Shown: one piece after another, positions 44,941 to 60,675 of the stretch
Layout of the letters: every line of letters begins with the position of its first letter
Position numbering within the stretch: the first letter of the stretch is position 1
Source of the DNA: an uncultured Chitinophagaceae bacterium
GTDB taxonomy: Bacteria; Bacteroidota; Bacteroidia; Chitinophagales; Chitinophagaceae
Assembly (NCBI GenBank): GCA_937981995.1
Contig: CALJNC010000013.1
Location: 1 to 64,000 of the forward strand
Reading direction: 5' to 3'
Length of the DNA stretch: 64,000 nucleotides
Program-made: the position numbers and the translations under genes
Notes under the pieces: generated by a model
The model's input: the letters and a program-made list of their open reading frames with translations, nothing else
Databases searched by the model: none
Told to the model about the DNA's origin: nothing

Positions 44941-46195
44941 ATTCAACTTATTGTCCGCGGTCCTTTTTTTATTGAGTACACAATTGTTTGCTCAAGAAAA
45001 TTCTCCTTATTCTAGATACGGTATTGGCTTGTTACAGTCAAGCGAAAATATATCGAATAGAGGTATGGGCGGCACCTCAATTGCCGATAGAAGTAACGTA
45101 CTTATTAATCCATCCAATCCTGCATCTTATTCAGCATTAAAACTTACCTCTTATCAACTTGGGCTAACGGGTTCTTCATTTAATATTCGTAGTACAACCT
45201 CTTCTAATCGCACCGGTGGTTTTGGATTGTCTTATGTAAATTTAGCTTTTCCTATTGCCAAAAGAACAGCAGTAAGTTTTGGTCTATTGCCATACTCAAG
45301 AGTAAAATATAATTTGCGTCAAGAAACAAACTTGCCCGGAATATCTGATGTAGTGTACGACTATTTTGGTGGCGGAAGTATACAGCGTGTTTATGTTGGA
45401 GCTGCGCATGAGTATAAAGGATTATCAATAGGGTTTAATGCAGGATATATTTTTGGAAATTATCAAAATAATGTTTCTGAAGCCTTTACAGATTCTTTAA
45501 ATATTTTAAATTCTGATATTCTCCGTCGTACGATAGTTGGAGGATTAAATTTTGATTTTGGAGCATCTTATCATCTTAAGTTAAAAAAGGAACGATACTT
45601 AAATCTAGCAGCCACCTTGACCAATCAATCTAACTTAAATGCAACATCTGATAGATACTGGTATAGCGCCATAGGAGATATTAACTCAGGTCTTTATTCA
45701 TACAAAGTGGATAGCTTGGTAGATCAAAAAGGAACAATAGTTTTGCCTTCTAAAGTAGGCTTTGGCTTACAGTATGGTAATGGAGACTTTTGGAAAGTGG
45801 GTATTGACTATCGCTCGTCTGATTGGTCTAAGTATTCTTCATTCAACCAGGCAGATTCTTTTGCCAGTGCTTCTTCAATAAGAGTAGGTGGAGAGTTTAC
45901 CCCTGATGTAAATGCAAAGTTTAATGTATGGAAAACTGTAGCATACAGAATAGGTGGTTACTATACTACGGAGCCATTAATGCTAAATGGCACCCAATTA
46001 AATACTACAGGAGTAACCGTAGGATTAGGTTATCCAATTAGAAGAACCTTATTAAGTATTGGTCAGGTAAATGCTTCTTTTGAAGTAGGTAAGCGCGGTA
46101 CATTAGATGCTGGCTTGGTGCAAGAAAACTATTCTCGTTTTTCAATTGGGGTAACCTTAAATGACCGTTGGTTCTTGAAGCGTAGATATGACTAA
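44933..46195 (+). CDS. Outer-membrane protein, FadL/OmpP1-like
   Basis: 420 residues with signal peptide MYKFNLLSAVLFLLSTQLFAQ. The mature start NSPYSRYGIGLLQSSENISNRGMGG and the IADRSNVLINPSNPAS stretch resemble FadL/OmpP1-like barrels of Bacteroidota (NPA-type N-terminus, many amphipathic strands with aromatic ends). Substrate unknown. It overlaps coaX by 8 bp and lptC by 8 bp, so the three are translationally linked; this order seems familiar from other Bacteroidota. Confidence 0.8.
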   Translation: MYKFNLLSAVLFLLSTQLFAQENSPYSRYGIGLLQSSENISNRGMGGTSIADRSNVLINPSNPASYSALKLTSYQLGLTGSSFNIRSTTSSNRTGGFGLSYVNLAFPIAKRTAVSFGLLPYSRVKYNLRQETNLPGISDVVYDYFGGGSIQRVYVGAAHEYKGLSIGFNAGYIFGNYQNNVSEAFTDSLNILNSDILRRTIVGGLNFDFGASYHLKLKKERYLNLAATLTNQSNLNATSDRYWYSAIGDINSGLYSYKVDSLVDQKGTIVLPSKVGFGLQYGNGDFWKVGIDYRSSDWSKYSSFNQADSFASASSIRVGGEFTPDVNAKFNVWKTVAYRIGGYYTTEPLMLNGTQLNTTGVTVGLGYPIRRTLLSIGQVNASFEVGKRGTLDAGLVQENYSRFSIGVTLNDRWFLKRRYD

Positions 46196-46745
46196 ATACT
46201 TTTGCTTCTTGTGCATTCTTATTTCTTTTATAGCTTGTAAGGAAGATGAGTTAGGCATAGAAGAGATTAAAGAGATTTATGAAACCAAGCGGGAGCGTGG
46301 CGAAGACGTAACCATTTTGTACAGTGAAAATGGTTACACAAAAGCAAAATTATTTGCGCATAGTTTTTTTCAGAAAAAAGATATTACACCTCCTTTTGTA
46401 GAAATGAAAGATGGTTTGCGCGTTGACTTTTTTAATGAAGCAGCCGTTATGCAAAATACGCTTACGGCAAAGTATGGTCGTTATTATGAATCCAAGGGCA
46501 ATGTACTAGTAAAAGATAGCGTAGTTGTAAAAAATGTAAAAGGTGAAACCCTAGAAACCGAGGAGTTAATCTGGAATGAAAAACTAGGTAAATTCTATTC
46601 TGATAAGCAGGTGAAAGTTACCACCCCCACCCAAATTATATATGGCGATGGGTTGGAGGCCAATCAAGATTTTTCGCAGTATCAAATTAAAAATGTCAAA
46701 GGCGTAATATCTGTAGATAAAAATCGGGTACCGGCTATGGATTGA
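46188..46745 (+). CDS. lptC: LPS export ABC transporter periplasmic protein LptC
   Basis: LptC bridges the inner-membrane LptBFG complex to LptA. 185 residues; a signal region ending in a lipobox-like FIAC, unlike the transmembrane anchor of E. coli LptC, then the OstA/LptC beta-jellyroll: MKDGLRVDFFNEAAVMQNTL, KYGRYYESKGNVLVKDSVVV, ETEELIWNEKLGKFYSDKQV and IYGDGLEANQDF, the usual signatures. Overlaps the preceding gene by 8 bp and ends a five-gene run. Confidence 0.9.
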   Translation: MTKYFCFLCILISFIACKEDELGIEEIKEIYETKRERGEDVTILYSENGYTKAKLFAHSFFQKKDITPPFVEMKDGLRVDFFNEAAVMQNTLTAKYGRYYESKGNVLVKDSVVVKNVKGETLETEELIWNEKLGKFYSDKQVKVTTPTQIIYGDGLEANQDFSQYQIKNVKGVISVDKNRVPAMD

Positions 46746-47817: not shown

Positions 47818-47850
47818 GCGTTACTCTTTATTGAGTAGCGCTTTTTTTTT
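47818..47850 (+). terminator. Rho-independent terminator after mdh
   Basis: Stem GCGTTACTC / GAGTAGCGC (one G-T pair), loop TTTATT, then nine T, 27 nt after the mdh stop. The T-run touches the stop codon of the convergent TolC gene. Confidence 0.88.
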
Positions 47851-49258
47851 ATAACTCTTGCATACGAGCTACTTCCTTATATAATTTGAGAATGGATATT
47901 TGATATTTAATTAAATTTTCTAATCTATTTAATCTTATATCCAGTAGTTTGTTTTCTCGGCTATTAATAAGAAATATGGTGCTACTGCCTAATGTATATT
48001 TAGTATTTTCAGCACGGTATAATCTGTCAATACTATTAAGGTATTGCTCATAAAGTTCTATCTGAGATTTTGCTATATTAATTTCATTGAGTTGATATAG
48101 CACTTGATTCTGAATTCTACGTTGCGTATAATCTCGTTTTAGTTGAGTTTGTAAAAGGTCATTTTTTGCCAAGTTTACTTGCGCTCGTCCTTCGGATAAT
48201 CTTAGAGGTACTTCCATACCTACATTGAATTGATAATTATTATTTCCTGAGCCACTTACAATTGAATTTAAACCACGTTCAATACGATAGCCACCAAGAG
48301 TTACATTAGGTAGTAATTGTTGAAAAGCAAGTTTTTGTTTAATTTGAATTTGCTCTTGTTTTAAATCATTGATAGAAAGTATGGGGTGCTCATTAGAAAG
48401 CTCAGTCCAATAGGAATTTAAGCTGTCCTTACTAGCAAATTGGCCAATGCTTAAAGAGTCAGGAATCATAGCGCCTTGCGCTAGTTGCACATAAGTTGTA
48501 CTATCCCATACATGCTGTGAAAGTTCAATCCCGGTTTCAATCCATTTGATATAGCTTTGATTACTATATAGTTTGAATTGTTGAAGCTGCGATAAAGCCT
48601 CGGTCGTATCAATAGCCGGAGCGTTTCCTAAGCGCCAAGTGTTTTTTACTAATTCGTATCTGCTTAAGTTTAAGTTATAAATATCCTTAAAGGTTTGATA
48701 CTTTAAATATTCATTTAGCCAATCAAAATAGGTGGCATATGCTTCAAAATAAATTTGATTAATAATTAAGTTTCGTTCATGATCGGCTGCTGTTCTTAGT
48801 AGTTTTGATTGCTCCAATACAGCTCTTCTTTTATTCATATAAAGCCCTTGCGTAAGAGAAAATGACCCACCTAAAAAATAGGCGTTTCCTAGGGTTACCT
48901 CATCATTTGTAAACAAGCCATTGTTATTATTATAACCAGCAACCACATCCACACCTAACCAAGTAGGGATATCAATTTTTATATTTCTGTAATCAAAGTA
49001 TTCTTTTCCTTCGAATTGTTTGTTGGTTTTGCCCAATGATAATTTAGGGTCAAATCCACCTCGTGCATTTCTGATTGCCTGTTGTGCATTGTTTACCGAT
49101 ATTTCGGCCTGGCGCAAAACAGGATGGCCTTCTTTTAAAATATTTTTAAACTCATTAAAACTTAAAATACTTTGACCTGCTTTAGCTTGAGCATAGCTTA
49201 AGGTCGAACACAATACTAGCACACATATGATTACAATCCGCTTCGAATTATTTTTCAT
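47849..49258 (-). CDS. TolC-family outer-membrane efflux protein
   Basis: A 469-residue outer-membrane channel: signal peptide ending SYAQA, then two TolC half-repeats with long helices (about 35-230 and 270-465). The second half carries NVTLGGYRIERG and MEVPLRLSEGRAQVNLAKND, the usual strand then helix of the family. It forms the exit duct for the HlyD/ABC pair encoded upstream; it overlaps the HlyD gene by 11 bp and is last in the operon. Confidence 0.88.
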   Translation of the reverse strand: MKNNSKRIVIICVLVLCSTLSYAQAKAGQSILSFNEFKNILKEGHPVLRQAEISVNNAQQAIRNARGGFDPKLSLGKTNKQFEGKEYFDYRNIKIDIPTWLGVDVVAGYNNNNGLFTNDEVTLGNAYFLGGSFSLTQGLYMNKRRAVLEQSKLLRTAADHERNLIINQIYFEAYATYFDWLNEYLKYQTFKDIYNLNLSRYELVKNTWRLGNAPAIDTTEALSQLQQFKLYSNQSYIKWIETGIELSQHVWDSTTYVQLAQGAMIPDSLSIGQFASKDSLNSYWTELSNEHPILSINDLKQEQIQIKQKLAFQQLLPNVTLGGYRIERGLNSIVSGSGNNNYQFNVGMEVPLRLSEGRAQVNLAKNDLLQTQLKRDYTQRRIQNQVLYQLNEINIAKSQIELYEQYLNSIDRLYRAENTKYTLGSSTIFLINSRENKLLDIRLNRLENLIKYQISILKLYKEVARMQEL

Positions 49259-50600
49259 TACTTTTTATTTTTTTTTTGTTGTAATAATTAGGTGGGAATC
49301 CATTTATGTTTCTCCAAAGTTCATACCATATAGTTACGTCATTCAATAGTGCTATTCCTTGAGCGCCGGCTCCTATTCGTAATTGTTTGGGCCACGGTTT
49401 GTGATCGTTCTCATCTTCTACAACTAATACTCTGTAATAGCCATCGCTATTTAGGTTGTTTTCTATAGTCAATACGCGGCCTCTAAAGGTGCCGAATGAA
49501 GCATTGGGCCATCCGCTAAACACAATAGCAGGAAATCCGTCGAATAGAAAAGCCATTTGTTGTCCTTCCTGTATAAGGGGTACATCCATTGGTTTTACAA
49601 AAACTTCTACTGTATACTTAATTTCTTCAGGTACTATGGTTACCAAGTGTTCGCCTTGTTTAATTACCTCTCCTATACCTGATACCCTTGCATCTGTAAT
49701 TTGTCCATTTTGCGGGGCGCGCACAATGTATAATTTACGGCGAGCATCGTAGGTGCCATATAAGTTTTTAAGCTTTGCTATTTCGCTTTCTGTATTTGAT
49801 ATAGAAGAGAGTGATTCAAAACGATCGCTTTGCGTTTTGGCAATTTTCTCGTTATACTCCTGTTGCACTCGTTGCAATTCAATGCGCATTCTGTTCAAGT
49901 CTTGCATGGCGGTCAAGTATTTATTGTTTACCGCTGTTTGCTTGGCTAATGTTTCTTGTAATTTATTTTGTCTTGACTCTAAATCGGTAAGACTTATAAG
50001 CCCTTGCTTATATAATTCTTGGTTTCTGTTATATTGTGTACTTGCTATTTTTGCTTCTGTTTTCGCTGCAGTTAGGTTTGCTTTTTCTGTTTGTACACTT
50101 AATTCTTTCTGTCTTATTTTATTCTTTATTTCTTTTCTCTTTAAAGCAATGGTTCTTTCCAATGCACTTCCTTGATCAATAGATGCCTGTGCTTTGTTTT
50201 TATAATTACTTGCTTTTTGTCTTTTAGCACTTATTTGTTCTGAAGTACGTTGTAGTAAGTTAGGATCTAAATATTCTTCTTTTACCTCTGACAATTCAAG
50301 AATGGTGTCTCCTTTCTTTACAAAATCACCTTCTTTTACATACCAGTTAGATATTCTTCCGGGTAATACACTATTTAGCTCTTGAGGCCTTTGATCTTGG
50401 TATAAGGTTGTAACTTTTCCTTTGCCTCGTATGTTTTGAGTCCATGGTAGAAATAAAAGGATACCTATTAAAATAGCTAAGCCAACAAACCAATACTTAA
50501 CTTTTGTTTTTTTATGTATTAAATAAATTGACTTTAAAACCATGTAATCACTAGGTTTATTTGTCATTATATTCTCTAATTCCTCGTTTAAATATTTCAT
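49248..50600 (-). CDS. HlyD-family membrane fusion protein
   Basis: A 450-residue adaptor linking the ABC protein to TolC. Short cytoplasmic N-terminus, one TM helix (about 38-55), a split lipoyl domain (VLPGRISNWYVKEGDFVKKGD at the front and RAPQNGQITDARVSGIGEVI at the back) around a long coiled coil (about 110-290, Gln/Lys-rich), then beta-barrel segments. This is the type I secretion adaptor layout. It starts 9 nt after the ABC gene stop. Confidence 0.9.
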   Translation of the reverse strand: MKYLNEELENIMTNKPSDYMVLKSIYLIHKKTKVKYWFVGLAILIGILLFLPWTQNIRGKGKVTTLYQDQRPQELNSVLPGRISNWYVKEGDFVKKGDTILELSEVKEEYLDPNLLQRTSEQISAKRQKASNYKNKAQASIDQGSALERTIALKRKEIKNKIRQKELSVQTEKANLTAAKTEAKIASTQYNRNQELYKQGLISLTDLESRQNKLQETLAKQTAVNNKYLTAMQDLNRMRIELQRVQQEYNEKIAKTQSDRFESLSSISNTESEIAKLKNLYGTYDARRKLYIVRAPQNGQITDARVSGIGEVIKQGEHLVTIVPEEIKYTVEVFVKPMDVPLIQEGQQMAFLFDGFPAIVFSGWPNASFGTFRGRVLTIENNLNSDGYYRVLVVEDENDHKPWPKQLRIGAGAQGIALLNDVTIWYELWRNINGFPPNYYNKKKIKSNEK

Positions 50601-50609
50601 ACTATTTAT

Positions 50610-52271
50610 TTAATCTAGGTTTATGTTATGATGGTTTTCTAATAAAAGGATTTTATTAGCTGCACCTAAATTTTCTTTAATCAAGGTTGAAAATATTAGA
50701 ATGCGATTATCTAATTGTGTCTCGAAATAGTTCTTGAGAGAAAGCATATATTTCTCTTGTAATTCATTAAATGGTTCTTCCATTACATAAATTGTTTTAT
50801 CTAAGCAAAGTGTGCGCAATACGAGTACCATCTTTCTTATTTGTGATGGTACATTATACTCAGAAGGTATAATTAGTGTATTGTATCCATCGGTTAATAA
50901 CATAATTTCAGAATGAAAGCCTAATGCCTTTGAGGTTTTAATTACATGTTTTAGGCTTATTTCATCTCGGTTTAATATGATGTTGTGCATGAGCGTTCCT
51001 GGTATTAAGCCACTTTCTTTATATAGCCCAGAGGTGTTTTCTTGTAATAAATTATGCGCAATATTTGGCACAACTAGTTCATCTACAACTAACCTGCCCT
51101 CATAGTTTAAGTAAATGCCTGATAGGATGTTAAGTAATGTTGATTTCCCTGATCCCGAATCTCCATGAATACCCATACGGTCTCCTTTATTTAATGTTAG
51201 ATTAATTTCATTTAAGATGTTTGTTTTTTTATTATTTGTAATTCTAATATTTTCAACTGTGATAGAATTTACTTCTTCGGTAGTAAAGCTGTGATTTAAT
51301 GACTCTTCAACTTCTGGCATTTCCGTAACGTTTAATATCTTTTTAGTTGATGTAAGAAGATCATACACATTATCCAGTCCAAAAATCATTTTTTCAATGG
51401 CAGATAATAAAAGAATGATTACAATTTCAGCCGCAACAAATTGTCCTATATTAATAAGTTGCTCAATTAAAAGATAAGTTCCAACGGATAGCATGGCCGC
51501 CGTAAGAATAACTTTGAAAAGTAAAAGAGCCCAGTATTGAGTTTTTAAAACTCTGAAATGTTCATTTCTTGCTTGTAAATATTTACTCAAAATAAAATGA
51601 CTTTCTTTACTTGCTACATGATTCAGGGTGCCTAGCCTTACATCTTTTACATAGGCGGCTTGTGTTTCAAGCCAATCGGCTAGTTCATATTTATGATCAC
51701 TTTCTTCATAACTACTTTTAAGACCTTTTATGCCCGTAAGCCGTATGAGCAAATACAAGGTTGCTAATAAAAACAAACCAAATATTATAAACAACGGATG
51801 ATAGAACGCGAGTAATAATAAACCTAGCAAAATTTGCATTGTGGAAGAGGGGATATCTATCAATAATTTGGATAAGCTTTTTTGAAAACTTATAATGTCA
51901 AAATATCGATTCATATGCTCCATTAATTTATTGTCTTTGGTTTGTTGCAAATCTAATAGCGACATTTTTTTATTAAAAGAAAGAGAGAAGCGAGCAAATA
52001 TTTTTTGTTTTACCTTCTCGGTTATCTTTAATTGATTTATTTGAAATACACCGTAGAGTAGGGTTGCTAATACTACAACACTGATAAGTAAAATCAATGA
52101 GGTAGATACTTGCGCAGCCATTACAAAGCCTATGATAGCCTGAATACCTAGCGGTAAACCCAATGATATTAGTCCGGCGGCTATTGCATAAAAATAGATG
52201 TTGACAATATCTCTTTTGTCAAGACGCAGCAATTTTAATGTGCTAGTTATGGCACTATACTTTTTTTTCAT
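50610..52271 (-). CDS. ABC exporter with degenerate nucleotide-binding domain
   Basis: A 553-residue fused permease-ATPase. N-terminal about 310 residues hold the type I exporter membrane domain (several helices, starting IYFYAIAAGLISLGLPLGI); there is no peptidase C39 domain. In the ATPase, Walker A is intact (GDSGSGKST, 370-378), but LSGGQ is replaced by VPSQI (474-478), the Walker B Asp is Glu 498 (VMEEP, with Glu 499 kept) and the switch His position is Leu 530. Alignment across signature to Walker B is ungapped, so this is divergence, not frameshift. It heads the operon with HlyD and TolC genes. Substrate unknown. Confidence 0.88.
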   Translation of the reverse strand: MKKKYSAITSTLKLLRLDKRDIVNIYFYAIAAGLISLGLPLGIQAIIGFVMAAQVSTSLILLISVVVLATLLYGVFQINQLKITEKVKQKIFARFSLSFNKKMSLLDLQQTKDNKLMEHMNRYFDIISFQKSLSKLLIDIPSSTMQILLGLLLLAFYHPLFIIFGLFLLATLYLLIRLTGIKGLKSSYEESDHKYELADWLETQAAYVKDVRLGTLNHVASKESHFILSKYLQARNEHFRVLKTQYWALLLFKVILTAAMLSVGTYLLIEQLINIGQFVAAEIVIILLLSAIEKMIFGLDNVYDLLTSTKKILNVTEMPEVEESLNHSFTTEEVNSITVENIRITNNKKTNILNEINLTLNKGDRMGIHGDSGSGKSTLLNILSGIYLNYEGRLVVDELVVPNIAHNLLQENTSGLYKESGLIPGTLMHNIILNRDEISLKHVIKTSKALGFHSEIMLLTDGYNTLIIPSEYNVPSQIRKMVLVLRTLCLDKTIYVMEEPFNELQEKYMLSLKNYFETQLDNRILIFSTLIKENLGAANKILLLENHHNINLD

Positions 52272-52450: not shown

Positions 52451-52458
52451 TATATTTG
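52451..52458 (+). promoter_or_regulatory. -7-like box TATATTTG just before the tetR-type gene
   Basis: TAnnTTTG match 6 nt before the ATG at 52465; the transcript would be leaderless or nearly so. A TTTG at 52436-52439 is only 11 nt upstream, too close for a standard -33. Confidence 0.4.
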
Positions 52459-52464
52459 CTACCT

Positions 52465-53151
52465 ATGGGTGTTGACGTTCAATTGGGCCTTAATAAAGGT
52501 TTATTTCACAGGGATCCTCAGGAAACTACGCTAGGGAAAAAAATCATAGAGAGTAGTATTATTCTTATTGAAGATCTTGGTTTTGAAGATTTTACATTTC
52601 GTAAATTGGCAAAAGAAATAGGGAGCACGGAGGCTTCTATTTACAGATATTTTGAAAACAAGCATTTATTACTTGTCTTTCTTATATCATGGTACAATGA
52701 GTGGGTTAATTATTTATTAGAAATAAATAGTAGGAATATTTTTGATTCTATCTCTAAGTTAGAAACTGCAATTGATTCAATAGCTGATGCTTCTTTAGAT
52801 TTATATACGCCATCATACATAAATATGCAGTTATTACATCATATTGTAATTACTGAGAGTACCAAGGCATATCATACCAAAAGAGTGGACAAGGAAAATC
52901 AGGAAGGTTTATTTTTACCTGTTAAAATTTTAGCTGAGAAGTTAGTTGCTCTTTTTGAAGAAATTAATCCTGACTATCCTTACCCAAGATTGTTAGCTAG
53001 CACATTACTTGAGATGGCCAATTCACAGGTGTTTTATGCGCAACATTTAAAAAGATTGACGGATATAGAAGTTGAGAAGGAAGACTACAGTCAATTAAAA
53101 AGGGCTATGAAGCATACTGCTTTTAAATTGTTAGGCATTGAAGAAATGTAA
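52465..53151 (+). CDS. TetR/AcrR-family transcriptional regulator
   Basis: A 228-residue regulator. The N-terminal helix-turn-helix reads ETTLGKKIIESSIILIEDLG, FTFRKLAKEIGSTEASIYRY, with F-x-NK-x-LL following, the standard TetR DNA-binding domain (about residues 15-70). The rest is helical ligand-binding domain. It is divergent from the exporter operon, with a 43-bp palindrome between, so it most likely represses that operon and perhaps itself. Start at 52465 is set by the ATG. Confidence 0.88.
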   Translation: MGVDVQLGLNKGLFHRDPQETTLGKKIIESSIILIEDLGFEDFTFRKLAKEIGSTEASIYRYFENKHLLLVFLISWYNEWVNYLLEINSRNIFDSISKLETAIDSIADASLDLYTPSYINMQLLHHIVITESTKAYHTKRVDKENQEGLFLPVKILAEKLVALFEEINPDYPYPRLLASTLLEMANSQVFYAQHLKRLTDIEVEKEDYSQLKRAMKHTAFKLLGIEEM

Positions 53152-54600: not shown

Positions 54601-57600
54601 CTACTTCACTTTTATTCTTATCCCCTCGCTATGGCTGCTAAACTCAGGAGCATACATACATTGTATGCTTGTAATGCCGTTACTATAATCACCGCGCATA
54701 GTAGTAAACATAGGGTATTCAAAAATATAAGTTCCTGGTCTTAAGTTATCAAAAAAGAATTGAGTCGAAGCATCTTTTGTGCTTTCGTAATAGCCAAGCC
54801 CATTTTGATATTTGTAGTTACTTAAAACATTTGTAGGCTCAAAACAAGCGCCGCGCATGTCTTTCATATGTATAAATTCCATTCGGCGATCAACTCGTAA
54901 TTCTATTCTTACTTTGACCTTATCGCCTACTTTAAGTTGTTCATTATCTTTTACAAGTATCAGTTTTTCGCCGCGGTCACCTTGTACCACTTTATATACT
55001 TGTTTCTTTAAGCTAAGTGGCGTTTCTGATTCTGTAATTTTATCCAATTGCTCAAAATATTGCCAATAAACAGCACCCCAAGTTGTACCTACTTTTTTAT
55101 CGGCTTTTACACTTACTTGTATGTTACCCATTTCCGGTTGTACTTCATCTTTCTTAAAAGAAAACTTAGTGTAACCCGTGCCGGCTTCTTGTTTATAATC
55201 TGACAAATCAATTTTTTTAGAACCTAACTTCATGCTCACTTTGGGCTCTGCACCTAGCCAGTCGGCTCCTCCCAATAGTAAGGCATAGCAGGCATCTGCC
55301 GTGGCTTTGGTTGTTTTCCATTGGGTGGTTTGTTTTTGTTTTAATAACCAAATGCGCAGCTCATCAACTTCAGTTAACTCATTCCCACTATCAGGTGTTG
55401 GCATTTCTCTAAAGGCTTCTATCAACAAACTATGAGCTTCTATCGGAGCAGAGTGCCACCAATAAGAACCTTGGTTAAACTCTTTCCAGTACATGCCCAT
55501 TTCTTCTTTATGAATGGCATTTTGGCGTAACGCTTCCATTATATCATTGGCGGTAGCTTGCTCGTTGTATCTATTCATTGCTATTGCAAGCATTCCTTGC
55601 ATATATTTATTCTGTTTATTCCAGTATTTTTTACCTTGATTTTTGTAATAGTTAAATGCTATTTTATTTGCCAGGCTCACTTTTTTATCCTGATAAAATG
55701 AGCGCATGTATAAATATTGAATGTGGTGGTAATTAATATTTTGATTTTTCAATAAACCTCTTTTTACTAAAAAGGCGTAATCTTCACGTATGCGTGCATC
55801 TAAATAGGGTATCGCTCTATTAAGGATGTTTTGAATTTTACTATTATTTTTTGCGTCTGCGACGCCTAATTTTTGCAAACGAGCAATGCCGGTTACAATG
55901 TATTGCGTAATAAACCGATTATCGCGCATGCCTTTAAACCATGCAAATCCACCATTGGAAGTTTGAAGTTTTTCAAGCTTTTTTAAAGTAGATGCAAGCT
56001 CTTTATTCATACGGTTTATGTTGAAAAGATTTGCAATCAATTTTTTCTGAGCCGTTTCGTTTTCTGCTTCAAAAACCCAAGGTGTTTCTTGTAATAAGGC
56101 GCTTTTTAATTCTTGATTTTTTTCAAGATTAGAAAGTAATGCTGCAGTATCTTTTTCTTTCCACTCACTAAATATTTTATTGATGCGCGGCGAGCTATTC
56201 GCAATATGTGAAGCCAAGGCATTGGCATAATAGCGATTAAACGTTTGTTCGCTGCATTCATAAGGATAATCAGTTAAGTAGGGCAAAGCCTGTACTGCAT
56301 ACCATGCAGGATTAGCAGTATACTCAACTGTTAGTTTATGATGCTTTAATGTACTTGACTGATTACTATTGATTAGTTTATCTAGTTTAAAATTTCTAGT
56401 TGTGTTAGCTCTTACGGGTAGGGGTATAGTTTCAGTAACCAGCATTGAGTTTAATAAAAGCGGGACACTCTTTTGCTCACCATCGCTATAACGATCTGCT
56501 TTTGCGACTATGCGCACAATAACAGGATCAGTATACGCTTCAGGTACTTGAATATTCCAAACAATCTCTTTACTCTTACCAGCCGCTATATCAAATCCTA
56601 AATCATTATATTCATTGCTAAATAGTCCATCAATATTTTCATTCGTTTTGGCATTGATAATTTGTAAACGAGCTGTTCCTTTTAAATTTTTATCTGATAA
56701 GTTTGAAAGTTTGCTGCTATAAATCATTTTATCACTCTCGCGCATAAAGCGCGGATGGTTTGGAGTGAGCATTAATTGTTTTTGAGTAACAAGTGTTTTT
56801 TCGAGGTAGCCAGTTTTTAAATCTGGAGTATGCGCTAAGGCTTTTACATTCCAACGGGTTAAAGCTTCGGGAGCAGTAAAGGATAAAATAGTGCTTCCAT
56901 TTTTATCTGTTTTTACATCTGGTATAAAAAAGGCAGTTTCGCTCATATTCGTACGCACTTTTACATCGTCCATTGAATTTGATTGGTCGCTATCATCAAC
57001 TGCATCTGCTGCGGTTTCTGTTTCATTTTTATCAACTCCTGTTATTGTTTCAAGAGCTGGCATAGCATTGCCTGAGGGCATTGATTTCATTTTTCGAGAG
57101 GATTTTTTGAGCATTCTGGGTGGAGCTGCTGAAGTATTTTGCACTTGCATTCCATCAACCATATACAGTGTTTCTTCGGCACGCCCACCGGCAATTGACA
57201 CAGGGTAGCCTCTTTGGCCATAACTTAATCCATACAAATTTAATTGAGGGTATTGTCTGTATTCATTGCTCCTAATGTAATTAGGTGCCTTATAAAAGGA
57301 TCTAGTAAGGCCCATGCCAAATGCTCTTGTGTTCCAATTTACATTTGCATAGTTGCTTCCAAATAGTTTTAGAGTGCTCCAATTATTTTTAGCAAATGCA
57401 TCTAAAGACGCATCATACATAGTAGCCAAAAGTTCAGCGCTTACTTTTTCTTTTTTGTCCCCTGTAATTTTTATTTTCCATTCTTGCTTGCTTGCCGGTA
57501 ATATTTTATTTCTAAATGTTTCGTAGGTTACATCTAGGTCTTTGTTCTTCCAAGGTACGTTTACAAGCACTCGTTCGTTATACAATCTATTGTTACGTAC

Positions 57601-60600
57601 CGTAAAATAATTAAGTAAAAATCCGCCTCTGTCTTTTTCGGTAATGCTAAAGTTTTCTGTTTTTTGATCCCAGGCATGTGATATTTTACCTCCCCTTGAT
57701 ATACTTTTGTTGATGTATGTATTACGAAACGATGAGGCGATACGCACGTTTGTTTTGTTGCCCGGTTCCGTATTTTCATTTGATATGTATGCAAAAAGTG
57801 CTTCGTTTATTTCAGCCTTTGATCTACTGTTATTAACCATTCGCACTACTTTCTTTTCCTCAATAAGTTTGTTGTTCTTATCGCGCGTACTTGCTTTAAG
57901 TAAGTAATATCCTTCGTTTGGAGCTATTTTTTGGAGGAATGTTTTTTTACCTTCTTCAGTTCTCAAGTTTTTACTCCATACTGTTTTTCCTTCTTTCCAG
58001 TACAGTGGATTGCTTTCATTTTTATATTCATAATCTGGGAAGTATGTAGCAAAATCTTTCTGTGTGAGTAGGTTTTCTTTAGGAGCTTGCCACATTCTTT
58101 TTTTAAGAAAACGTTTGGGAGCTTCTAATTTTATAAACTCAATTTTTACATCGGCAGGTGTAAATTTGCCTTGAATATTGGTTGTATTTACTCCTATACT
58201 ATTAAACTTATTAAAGTCTGATTGCTTTGGTGCATTTATGCTAAGCATTAGCGACTCGCTTGATATAGCATAGCTTTTATCTCCACTGCGCACTTCGCCA
58301 TTTATATCAGTTACATCAGCATGTACTGCAAAATCATAAAATGGTTTGGTGCTTGGATTGATGTTTTCATCGCCTTCTGCTATAAAGGTGATATTAAATT
58401 TGCCATCGGCATCAGTTACAGCTTCGCCTTGAGTAAGTACAATTTCGTTATTGCCGCTTGGTGCTCCCCAATAGTAATAGCACCAATAGTAAGGCCAGCG
58501 CACCTTACGACGTACAATGTATTTGACCTTGGCTCCTTCGATACTATTGCCGGCATAGGCTTTCGCTTTGCCGCTTACCGTTACTTGATTATTTAATTTT
58601 ACATTTTTTTCGAGTTGATCCATGACCACCTCAAATTTTGGTCTCTTGTATTCTTCTACTCTTATTTGCTTACTGCCTTTGCGGCTGTAAAGGGTAAAAC
58701 GACCATTGAGCAGTCCCTCTGGTGCCGTAAATGTTCCATGAAAAGATCCAAATTCATTTGTTGTAAAGTTTAATTTTTTTACTTCTTTATAGTTTGCATC
58801 TTTTAAAGTGATTTCTACTTTTTCATTTGATAATACATTGTGCTTTTGATTGCCTCCTTTCGAGTTTATATAAATTCCTTTAAAATAGATCGTTTGTCCT
58901 GGTCTGTAAATAGCACGATCGGTAAACAGATGCAATCGACTTCTGTCACGGGGTGCAGATCTGCGTCCTGTACTTAAAGCACTTTGGATATAAAGGTTTT
59001 GATTATTATGCTCTATTTCAATATCATAGGTCGAATAAGATTTTAGTGGAGTGTAATCAATCCTTCCTTCGCTGTCAGTTAGTTTACTATCTACCTTGAT
59101 GGTTATGTTTCTTCTTTTGTTATAATCATATTTTTTTGAGTACCTAGTTACTCTTGCTCCTTCAATTGGTTTTCCAGTTTCTCTATGCAATACATATAAA
59201 GTATTCCCTTTATTTGTTCTGCTATTTACGTAGCTCAACGCATTGGTTTGAAAAAGGCTATAACTTACAGGTGATTTTGTTTTATTGAAAGAAGGGTCAG
59301 CGGATGCTACAATAGCATAATGGCCTTCGCTTAATTGGTCAATTTTTACTTCGGTTGTATGCGGCTTGTATTTATTCTTTCCCTTCCATTCATCTCTTGA
59401 CAAGTCTAAATTCCATTCTTTTATTGCTTTTCCTTTAGGTATAGATTTATTTGATCTGTTATCTATTTCTCTTTTTTTGAATTGAACATAGGTCAATGGA
59501 ATCACTTTAAAATACACCTTATCAATATTGGTGAAGCTTAATTTGCCTAAGATGTTTTTATTGGCAACATCGGCTTTTTCGGTGCTCAATCCAATAGATT
59601 TTTTTTCAATACGTTGTACTAAGCGCTTAGCCTCCGGTGCTTCAATACTATTAGGAAATTTTTCAATTAAACGCATTGCCCATTGCCGTCCCTCAACTTT
59701 ATCTTTGTTCTGAATACTATTAGCTAACAACATCATGGGTTTGGCAATAGTTTCATTGTTTGGGTATTTAGCAATCAATGTTTTCAAGGCGGATTGGTAT
59801 TTTTCGTTTCCTTTTGTGCCGTCAAAATGATTTACTACAAATTGAAGCCTTTTAGCTTCTAGGTCAATCAAGGCATCGGGTTTTTTATCATTTAAATGAT
59901 AGCGCGTAGCTAATTGGAAATATTGCAATGCAACATACTTTGTTGAGTAATCATCTTTTGTTTTGAACGCATGTTGTGAAAACTCTTTAGCAGATGCAAA
60001 AGCTTTAGGCGATTTTAATTTAAAATAATAAGCCGCTTTGGTTATGTCAATTTCATTATTCTTGTAATAATCAATGGCCTTATGCACTAGTACATCAAAA
60101 AGTGTTGGGTGTAATGTTTCTGTATTTTTTCCTTTTACTATTAATTCTTTAAAGTTTGTAGTAGGATACTTTTTTAGGTTGTTTGAATTTTCTAAAGAAG
60201 CATCATATTGTTCTTGTATTTTATTAAAAAACAATTGCGGTGTCCAGGTTTCAATATCAGCAGGATATTTTAAGTCACTTGGGTTCGCAATTTCGGTACG
60301 CTTATAAATTTTGTATCGGTTTTGTTGATAATAGGAATGATACAAAGACGCAATCATGCTGTGCATGATATTTTTTTCAGGTGATTTAAGTCCTTCTATC
60401 TCTTTTTCAAAATCTTGAATTGTATTTACTTTATCCTTTTCATCGCGCTGGCTCACAGAATTCCGTAACATAATTAGCGACTTAATCGTTTGCTCCGTAT
60501 TGCCTTCTTTTTTAGCTGCAGCCATGATTTTTCGTATTAGTTTCTCAGCGTCTTTTGACTTTTGATTCGTCATAAGCGTTTCTACTAGTTTCCATTGGGT

Positions 60601-60675
60601 TTCGTAATAGGCTGTTTGTGCCATAGTACTATAGGATAATAATATTGCTAAAAGAATGGTGATATACTTCTTCAT
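54601..60675 (-). CDS. Alpha-2-macroglobulin family protein with thioester motif
   Basis: 2024 residues, the largest gene here. Signal peptide MKKYITILLAILLSYSTMAQ with no lipobox Cys, so soluble periplasmic or secreted, unlike the E. coli lipoprotein. MG2-type domain near residues 580-600 (TDRAIYRPGQTIYFKG), the A2M domain from about 1246 (PEALTRWNVKALA), and the thioester CSEQ at 1474-1477, followed by the helical thioester domain. Members trap proteases by cleavage of a bait region. Between MG domains and A2M, about residues 1150-1180, lies a TonB-plug-like segment (GGRAEETLYMVDGMQV). murB is divergent; no PBP1C partner is present. Confidence 0.92.
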   Translation of the reverse strand: MKKYITILLAILLSYSTMAQTAYYETQWKLVETLMTNQKSKDAEKLIRKIMAAAKKEGNTEQTIKSLIMLRNSVSQRDEKDKVNTIQDFEKEIEGLKSPEKNIMHSMIASLYHSYYQQNRYKIYKRTEIANPSDLKYPADIETWTPQLFFNKIQEQYDASLENSNNLKKYPTTNFKELIVKGKNTETLHPTLFDVLVHKAIDYYKNNEIDITKAAYYFKLKSPKAFASAKEFSQHAFKTKDDYSTKYVALQYFQLATRYHLNDKKPDALIDLEAKRLQFVVNHFDGTKGNEKYQSALKTLIAKYPNNETIAKPMMLLANSIQNKDKVEGRQWAMRLIEKFPNSIEAPEAKRLVQRIEKKSIGLSTEKADVANKNILGKLSFTNIDKVYFKVIPLTYVQFKKREIDNRSNKSIPKGKAIKEWNLDLSRDEWKGKNKYKPHTTEVKIDQLSEGHYAIVASADPSFNKTKSPVSYSLFQTNALSYVNSRTNKGNTLYVLHRETGKPIEGARVTRYSKKYDYNKRRNITIKVDSKLTDSEGRIDYTPLKSYSTYDIEIEHNNQNLYIQSALSTGRRSAPRDRSRLHLFTDRAIYRPGQTIYFKGIYINSKGGNQKHNVLSNEKVEITLKDANYKEVKKLNFTTNEFGSFHGTFTAPEGLLNGRFTLYSRKGSKQIRVEEYKRPKFEVVMDQLEKNVKLNNQVTVSGKAKAYAGNSIEGAKVKYIVRRKVRWPYYWCYYYWGAPSGNNEIVLTQGEAVTDADGKFNITFIAEGDENINPSTKPFYDFAVHADVTDINGEVRSGDKSYAISSESLMLSINAPKQSDFNKFNSIGVNTTNIQGKFTPADVKIEFIKLEAPKRFLKKRMWQAPKENLLTQKDFATYFPDYEYKNESNPLYWKEGKTVWSKNLRTEEGKKTFLQKIAPNEGYYLLKASTRDKNNKLIEEKKVVRMVNNSRSKAEINEALFAYISNENTEPGNKTNVRIASSFRNTYINKSISRGGKISHAWDQKTENFSITEKDRGGFLLNYFTVRNNRLYNERVLVNVPWKNKDLDVTYETFRNKILPASKQEWKIKITGDKKEKVSAELLATMYDASLDAFAKNNWSTLKLFGSNYANVNWNTRAFGMGLTRSFYKAPNYIRSNEYRQYPQLNLYGLSYGQRGYPVSIAGGRAEETLYMVDGMQVQNTSAAPPRMLKKSSRKMKSMPSGNAMPALETITGVDKNETETAADAVDDSDQSNSMDDVKVRTNMSETAFFIPDVKTDKNGSTILSFTAPEALTRWNVKALAHTPDLKTGYLEKTLVTQKQLMLTPNHPRFMRESDKMIYSSKLSNLSDKNLKGTARLQIINAKTNENIDGLFSNEYNDLGFDIAAGKSKEIVWNIQVPEAYTDPVIVRIVAKADRYSDGEQKSVPLLLNSMLVTETIPLPVRANTTRNFKLDKLINSNQSSTLKHHKLTVEYTANPAWYAVQALPYLTDYPYECSEQTFNRYYANALASHIANSSPRINKIFSEWKEKDTAALLSNLEKNQELKSALLQETPWVFEAENETAQKKLIANLFNINRMNKELASTLKKLEKLQTSNGGFAWFKGMRDNRFITQYIVTGIARLQKLGVADAKNNSKIQNILNRAIPYLDARIREDYAFLVKRGLLKNQNINYHHIQYLYMRSFYQDKKVSLANKIAFNYYKNQGKKYWNKQNKYMQGMLAIAMNRYNEQATANDIMEALRQNAIHKEEMGMYWKEFNQGSYWWHSAPIEAHSLLIEAFREMPTPDSGNELTEVDELRIWLLKQKQTTQWKTTKATADACYALLLGGADWLGAEPKVSMKLGSKKIDLSDYKQEAGTGYTKFSFKKDEVQPEMGNIQVSVKADKKVGTTWGAVYWQYFEQLDKITESETPLSLKKQVYKVVQGDRGEKLILVKDNEQLKVGDKVKVRIELRVDRRMEFIHMKDMRGACFEPTNVLSNYKYQNGLGYYESTKDASTQFFFDNLRPGTYIFEYPMFTTMRGDYSNGITSIQCMYAPEFSSHSEGIRIKVK

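Follow-up and report, generated by a model that had tools for sequence, protein, structure and literature searches.

Erosion and loss of the ATPase domain in a family of ABC-derived tripartite exporters

Tripartite pumps driven by RND or MFS proteins are energized by ion gradients and work together with an adaptor and TolC. In type I secretion, ABC proteins such as PrtD (TIGR01842), LssB and HlyB combine a membrane domain with an ATPase domain and are encoded in operons with HlyD and TolC. Ion coupling has also been claimed for MsbA-MD and LmrA-MD, laboratory truncations that consist of an ABC membrane domain without ATPase, and this claim is debated. Ethidium transport by MsbA-MD under a pH gradient has been reported (PMC4979069, in the part of its text available), and the available text of PMC6155054 reports that LmrA-MD conducts ions, that it shows no ATP-induced current and that a glutamate in TM6 of LmrA (Glu314) is required for proton-coupled transport. 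The heterodimeric exporters TmrAB, TM287/288 and BmrCD carry one degenerate nucleotide site (PMC8277102, available text).

The exporter protein described here has the domain layout of PrtD, LssB and HlyB and is encoded in an operon of the same type. However, it scores far under the curated cut-offs for such proteins (best match TIGR01842, 126.7 bits against 510.15; TIGR03375, 113.4 against 693.1; TIGR01846, 99.6 against 725.55), it lacks LSGGQ, the Walker B Asp, the switch His and the Q-loop Gln, neither a C39 match in the proteins scanned nor a recurrent cargo gene in the loci compared was found, and some of its relatives have no ATPase domain. In contrast to TmrAB, TM287/288 and BmrCD, the degenerate protein is alone in its operon, with no recurrent canonical partner gene. 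The domain that was removed from LmrA and MsbA in the laboratory is naturally absent from some of the relatives here, and unlike that of RND- or MFS-driven pumps, the inner-membrane part is ABC-derived by sequence. Among the open-access papers listed by the literature searches, none describes the family, judged by titles and abstract openings (most subscription papers and all bioRxiv preprints lie outside this set). An earlier, sequence-only reading of this DNA had suggested an undescribed exporter class; this may be so, as the loss of ATPase motifs is common to relatives across taxonomic families.

The operon and its degenerate ATPase domain

The window, a stretch of 64,000 nucleotides from an uncultured Chitinophagaceae bacterium (contig CALJNC010000013.1), contains on its reverse strand a gene for an ABC-exporter-like inner-membrane protein of 553 amino acids with a membrane domain and a degenerate ATPase domain (50610–52271; open reading frame, Pfam and alignment). 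It is followed on the same strand by genes for an HlyD-type periplasmic adaptor of 450 amino acids (49248–50600; Pfam HlyD_3, 52.7 bits) and a TolC-type outer-membrane channel of 469 amino acids (47849–49258; Pfam OEP, 115.6 bits). The gap between the exporter and HlyD genes is 9 bases, and the HlyD and TolC genes overlap by 11. The layout of a type I secretion operon is therefore present in the window, and the protein heads a tripartite exporter operon as the sequence-only reading had it. A gene for a TetR-family regulator, recognized by domain match and cluster comparison, is divergent from the exporter gene (52456–53151, forward strand). Pfam detected ABC_tran (PF00005) in the exporter protein at 49 bits, above the cut-off of 25, and the score for ABC_membrane (PF00664), 17.9 bits, fell short of the cut-off of 28, which was reached by six of seven relatives scanned with Pfam (the protein of L075 was below). 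The best match among solved structures was 5l22, titled as an ABC transporter of the HlyB subfamily. An AlphaFold2 model built from four sequences was poor (mean pLDDT 44.5), so the fold of the exporter is taken from sequence.

The degenerate nucleotide-binding domain, delimited by Pfam and alignment, spans residues 336–539 (50655–51266, reverse strand, as are all motifs below). Alignment with relatives and 35 canonical exporters confirmed both what the sequence-only reading had seen as retained and what it had seen as replaced. Walker A is intact (GDSGSGKST, residues 370–378, 51138–51164), and Walker B ends in Glu498, where canonical exporters have Asp, followed by Glu499 at the catalytic position (50775–50780). 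The signature position reads VPSQI instead of LSGGQ (residues 474–478, 50838–50852), and Leu530 replaces the switch His (50682–50684). The alignment added Lys418 in place of the Q-loop Gln (51018–51020), a D-loop reading NELQ, and Asn346 at the aromatic position of the A-loop, which is Tyr in 34/35 canonical controls. It runs unbroken through the ATPase domain, which rules out a frameshift, as had been argued before.

These substitutions are not confined to one copy. The 98 members of the family set were the best matches per search together with chosen ones and do not represent a random sample. L003, which is a further copy of the window gene, was removed before counting. Leaving out nine members (five membrane-domain-only proteins, three cut by contig ends in L067, L074 and L079, and one split in L076) gave 89 full-length relatives. 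These were compared with 35 controls, ABC proteins of at least 440 amino acids from the retrieved loci that scored 120–200 bits to the family profile (duplicates removed; some from L037). The exact LSGGQ was found in none of the full-length relatives and in 15/35 controls. The second signature Gly was retained in 3/89, the Q-loop Gln in 5/89 and the switch His in a single relative, compared with 35/35, 35/35 and 32/35 controls, respectively. The first Walker B position, Asp in all controls, was Glu in 67 relatives, Asp in 16 and another residue in 6, so that 83/89 have an acid there. At the catalytic position, Glu in 32/35 controls, we found Glu in 30, Asp in 43, Asn in 9 and other residues in 7 of the relatives. 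The Walker A Lys was kept in 82/89, compared with 35/35 controls. Erosion of the ATPase motifs is thus common to the family and extends over several taxonomic families.

Close homologues with normal motifs had been named in the sequence-only reading as the mark of a merely decaying copy. LSGGQ is absent from all 89 relatives, and the nearest orthologue (L039, genome G299; same genus, 53% identity) has VPAQV at the signature and Glu-Asn at the end of Walker B, yet it is the one relative with His at the switch position. This His may be either a remnant or a reversion by chance; the other member of the genus has Asn there. The family pattern is also seen in Riemerella anatipestifer (WP_004920602.1), where the gene adjoins HlyD and TolC genes and the protein is annotated as “ABC transporter ATP-binding protein.”

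The window protein matched 3/3 genomes of its genus (E ≤ 1e-20), 158/298 of its order (E ≤ 1e-30), 170/345 of its class (E ≤ 1e-45) and 76/296 of its phylum (E ≤ 1e-40), with its own genome included in each count and the motif pattern checked in only part of the matches. Many genomes had no match, and the exporter system is therefore probably dispensable for its hosts. Scores against the family profile set the family well apart from canonical exporters: members reached 355–848 bits, whereas no canonical exporter exceeded 196. Many members (about 720–770 amino acids; e.g., those of L053, L052, L062 and L117) carry an N-terminal extension of about 150–170 amino acids. This extension may be a diverged C39-like domain, although it had no Pfam match in the proteins of L053 and L117 or in the 676-amino-acid protein of L124.

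Constraint on the membrane domain and its TM6 acid

The gradient of conservation along the protein is inverted relative to canonical exporters. Mean pairwise identity within the family was 49.2% in the membrane domain (residues 9–322, 51306–52247, reverse strand; defined by identity comparison and consensus) and 32.3% in the ATPase domain, whereas canonical exporters showed 26.3% and 46.4% (32 controls longer than 550 amino acids). Of 3916 family pairs, 99% had the higher identity in the membrane domain, compared with 0% of 496 canonical pairs; although pairs of this kind are not independent of one another, the difference is plain. Between the window protein and its nearest orthologue, identity is 67% for the membrane domain and only 36% for the ATPase domain. 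Across the whole module, mean identity was 49% for the membrane domain, 44.5% for HlyD and 31.7% for TolC, in sequence sets that differ. The membrane domain is thus under stronger constraint than the ATPase domain. Purifying selection still acts on the ATPase domain where it is retained: of 20 close full-length pairs, 13 yielded a ratio, with dN/dS of 0.019–0.284 (rough values, as dS exceeded 1 in several; the other seven pairs were saturated). For the membrane-domain-only proteins described below, 11 of 14 close pairs gave 0.044–0.274, and three were saturated.

Within the membrane domain, Glu282 (51426–51428, reverse strand; alignment and consensus) lies in a hydrophobic segment, residues 275–294, taken as TM6. 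The position is acidic in 98/98 family members and in 0/35 canonical exporters. Glu85, Asn121, Lys131, Lys194, Arg235, Gly276, Glu282 and Lys311 are invariant or nearly so across 137 sequences. The TM6 glutamate of LmrA (Glu314; PMC6155054, available text) is a candidate counterpart of Glu282.

Relatives without the ATPase domain and intermediate forms

A version of the protein that consists of the membrane domain only is encoded by 67 of the 223 genomes with matches in three taxonomic families. The first family contributes 15 of 46 matching genomes (121 searched), the second 27 of 76 with 28 copies (81 searched), and the third 25 of 101 (120 searched). Such proteins were called by the length of their open frames, which stop just short of the ATPase domain; short, cut or broken frames in G672, G816, G822 and G827 were not counted. 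Twenty-seven of the 68 copies were retrieved, and in every case the next genes are an HlyD and a TolC gene recognized by the profiles built for this operon. The spacing to the HlyD gene ranges from a slight overlap to a gap of about 120 bases, which is too little space for an ATPase domain. Two of the proteins were scanned with Pfam; both passed the ABC_membrane cut-off and had no ABC_tran match.

In the tree, the 27 copies group together as a single clade (SH-aLRT 100) that arises from within the full-length proteins of the second family, and eight of them that were included in a more careful tree received support of 100/100 (bootstrap not settled). One lineage across three taxonomic families has therefore lost the ATPase domain and otherwise kept the operon. 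Several independent losses of the whole domain had been expected; the tree gives a single origin. Four copies of the second family (L168, L169, L170 and L193) branch among those of the first, and two genomes (G776 and G808) carry both the full-length and the membrane-domain-only form, which suggests horizontal transfer. No membrane-domain-only example was found in plasmid records, where seven matching records cover 87–93% of the full-length window protein.

We also searched 16 membrane-domain-only genomes for a displaced ATPase domain, using that of a full-length close relative as the query. Among the best matches listed, none exceeded 32% identity or 102 bits, and nearly all lay in open frames of at least 576 amino acids; the same query reached 211–549 bits in three control genomes that encode the full-length form, including the genome from which it was taken. 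A strongly diverged domain could escape this query.

In the membrane-domain-only proteins, relaxation is strongest at the second coupling region and immediately past it (windows with start positions 208–214) and around residues 166–171. For the second coupling region as predefined, 8% of windows of the same length were equally relaxed, and the relaxation is suggestive only. No such relaxation is seen in the first cytoplasmic loop, and a partner in the cytoplasm may thus still dock.

For the INTERMEDIATE stages, 20 of 27 relatives matched outside the class were retrieved; HlyD was nearby in 19 and TolC in 18. Four of them (L211–L214) belong to the main type; the remaining 16 group apart from it in a clade of their own (100/100). 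The P-loop is present in all of these 16, Asp-Glu at the end of Walker B in 15, and the switch His and the second signature Gly in 13 each, while none has the Q-loop Gln and only three have the signature Gln (LSTGQ). Enough motifs are retained that these proteins may be active ATPases. Glu282 is present in 15 of the 16 and is therefore older than the full loss of ATPase residues. At the other end of the series, the six full-length closest kin of the domain-less clade have a Walker A reading GKHT, GKNT or GKET. Loss of the P-loop accounts for seven changes on the tree as drawn, with domain loss counted and with many deep forks weakly supported. From this distribution of motifs we infer an order in which the Q-loop and part of the signature would have been lost first, followed by the rest of the signature, the Walker B Asp and the switch His, then the P-loop and last the whole ATPase domain, with HlyD, TolC and the TM6 acid retained throughout.

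Energy source, substrate and alternative readings

On balance, the comparisons lean toward an ABC-derived tripartite exporter that would no longer depend on ATP hydrolysis by its own ATPase domain. The working unit, whether for transport or for gating, would be the membrane domain with HlyD and TolC. In copies that still have Walker A, such as that of the window, the ATPase domain would be at most a nucleotide-binding regulator or a structural part. The sequence-only reading had offered ATP binding without hydrolysis as one option. This may hold for the window copy but does not extend to the family at large, in which some members lack the P-loop or the entire domain. As a tentative extension, somewhat short of probable, an ion gradient could power transport by way of the invariant acid in TM6. 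Slightly more tentative still is the full scenario, in which a primary ABC exporter lineage would have turned stepwise into a secondary, ion-driven exporter while keeping HlyD, TolC and the TM6 acid; if true, this would be an ABC exporter that occurs in nature without an ATPase and a novel mode of energizing tripartite export.

Several observations weigh against hydrolysis-independent export. Whole-domain loss arose only once, the switch His is found in the nearest orthologue, the relatives of other classes may be active ATPases, and the conserved first cytoplasmic loop may still receive a partner. Glu282 is present in nearly all of the other-class relatives and thus did not arise with the loss of the ATPase. 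MsbA-MD and LmrA-MD, the closest precedents that work without an ATPase domain, are engineered truncations with a debated ion coupling, and LmrA-MD showed no ATP-induced current in one report (PMC6155054, available text). ABC transporters are defined by ATP hydrolysis, and this family has given up most of the residues for it and in part the whole domain, with the intermediates alive. The debated transport on ion gradients by an ABC membrane domain thereby becomes testable in natural proteins rather than truncations, and members annotated as ATP-binding proteins of ABC transporters, as in Riemerella, may not be ATP-driven pumps.

A membrane domain that does not pump at all would require no energy source. 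It could anchor or open the HlyD-TolC conduit as a scaffold or passive gate, with the substrate flowing down its own gradient or entering from the periplasm. We regard this as unlikely. In its favour, HlyD is also well conserved and the invariant charges Lys194 and Arg235 lie outside hydrophobic segments. However, the membrane domain has the highest mean identity in the module, in sets that differ, and an invariant acid within a hydrophobic segment would exceed the needs of an anchor.

It is distinctly unlikely that the domain is an unusual yet active ATPase, hydrolysing ATP without LSGGQ. The Walker A Lys and the acid at the first Walker B position are kept in most full-length relatives, the domain is under purifying selection, the relatives of other classes mostly have Asp-Glu, the switch His and the second signature Gly, and the nearest orthologue has the switch His. 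Yet the same orthologue has Asn at the catalytic position, where only about a third of the full-length relatives have Glu; the switch His and the Q-loop Gln are nearly absent from the family, and in some lineages the P-loop or the whole domain is gone.

The sequence-only reading had also considered pairing with an unlinked canonical subunit, for which we find little support. As a pseudo-subunit, the protein would pair with a canonical ABC half-transporter encoded elsewhere or receive an ATPase in trans. Degenerate sites are known in heterodimeric exporters (PMC8277102, available text), the first cytoplasmic loop is conserved in the membrane-domain-only proteins, and the source genome (82 contigs, 2.7 Mb) has two ABC_membrane exporters besides the window gene. 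No canonical partner subunit is encoded beside the window gene, and an exporter-size canonical gene was found in only three of the neighbourhoods examined. In L074 and L117, of one taxonomic family, a canonical exporter with intact LSGGQ lies directly upstream of the degenerate gene, and in L095 a partial one lies about 5 kb away. The L074 and L117 neighbours are generic, being 45–52% identical to exporters of other lineages. In addition, no displaced ATPase domain was seen among the matches listed for the 16 membrane-domain-only genomes, and a half without ATPase would leave the domain of its partner unpaired, which makes this reading quite improbable. Decay can be dismissed: a few relatives are broken (an in-frame stop in G355, split copies in G250 and G827), but nearly all listed matches have unbroken frames, and the motif loss common to relatives, the conserved pattern and dN/dS well below 1 rule out a pseudogene as well as decay of a single copy.

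Gene neighbourhoods bear on the substrate. HlyD and TolC clusters were each present in 57 of 60 loci, the window included, and absent from the same three, two of which end at contig ends (L067 and L074) and one of which (L107) is not explained. TetR genes occurred in 25/60 loci, 21 of them on the strand of the exporter gene, and apart from HlyD, TolC and TetR nothing recurred in more than six of the 60. No C39 domain was matched by Pfam in the window protein or in three long relatives scanned. Within these proteins and loci, the earlier observation that a peptidase domain and a nearby substrate gene are missing holds, although a substrate encoded elsewhere would escape such a comparison. The type I-like secretion suggested there is unsupported as far as export of a protein is concerned, with TetR the only other recurrent gene. 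Given the TetR partner, by analogy with TetR-controlled efflux pumps, and the lack of a recurrent cargo gene, a small molecule or lipid would be a likelier substrate than a protein.

Two further genes lie beyond the operon. Past its TetR side lies a gene for a 2024-amino-acid alpha-2-macroglobulin-type protein (MG2, A2M and bMG10 domains; 54601–60675, reverse strand), and nothing in the window ties it to the exporter. Past the TolC side, a gene on the forward strand (46188–46745) encodes an LptC-related protein, which scored 40.1 bits against a cut-off of 21.
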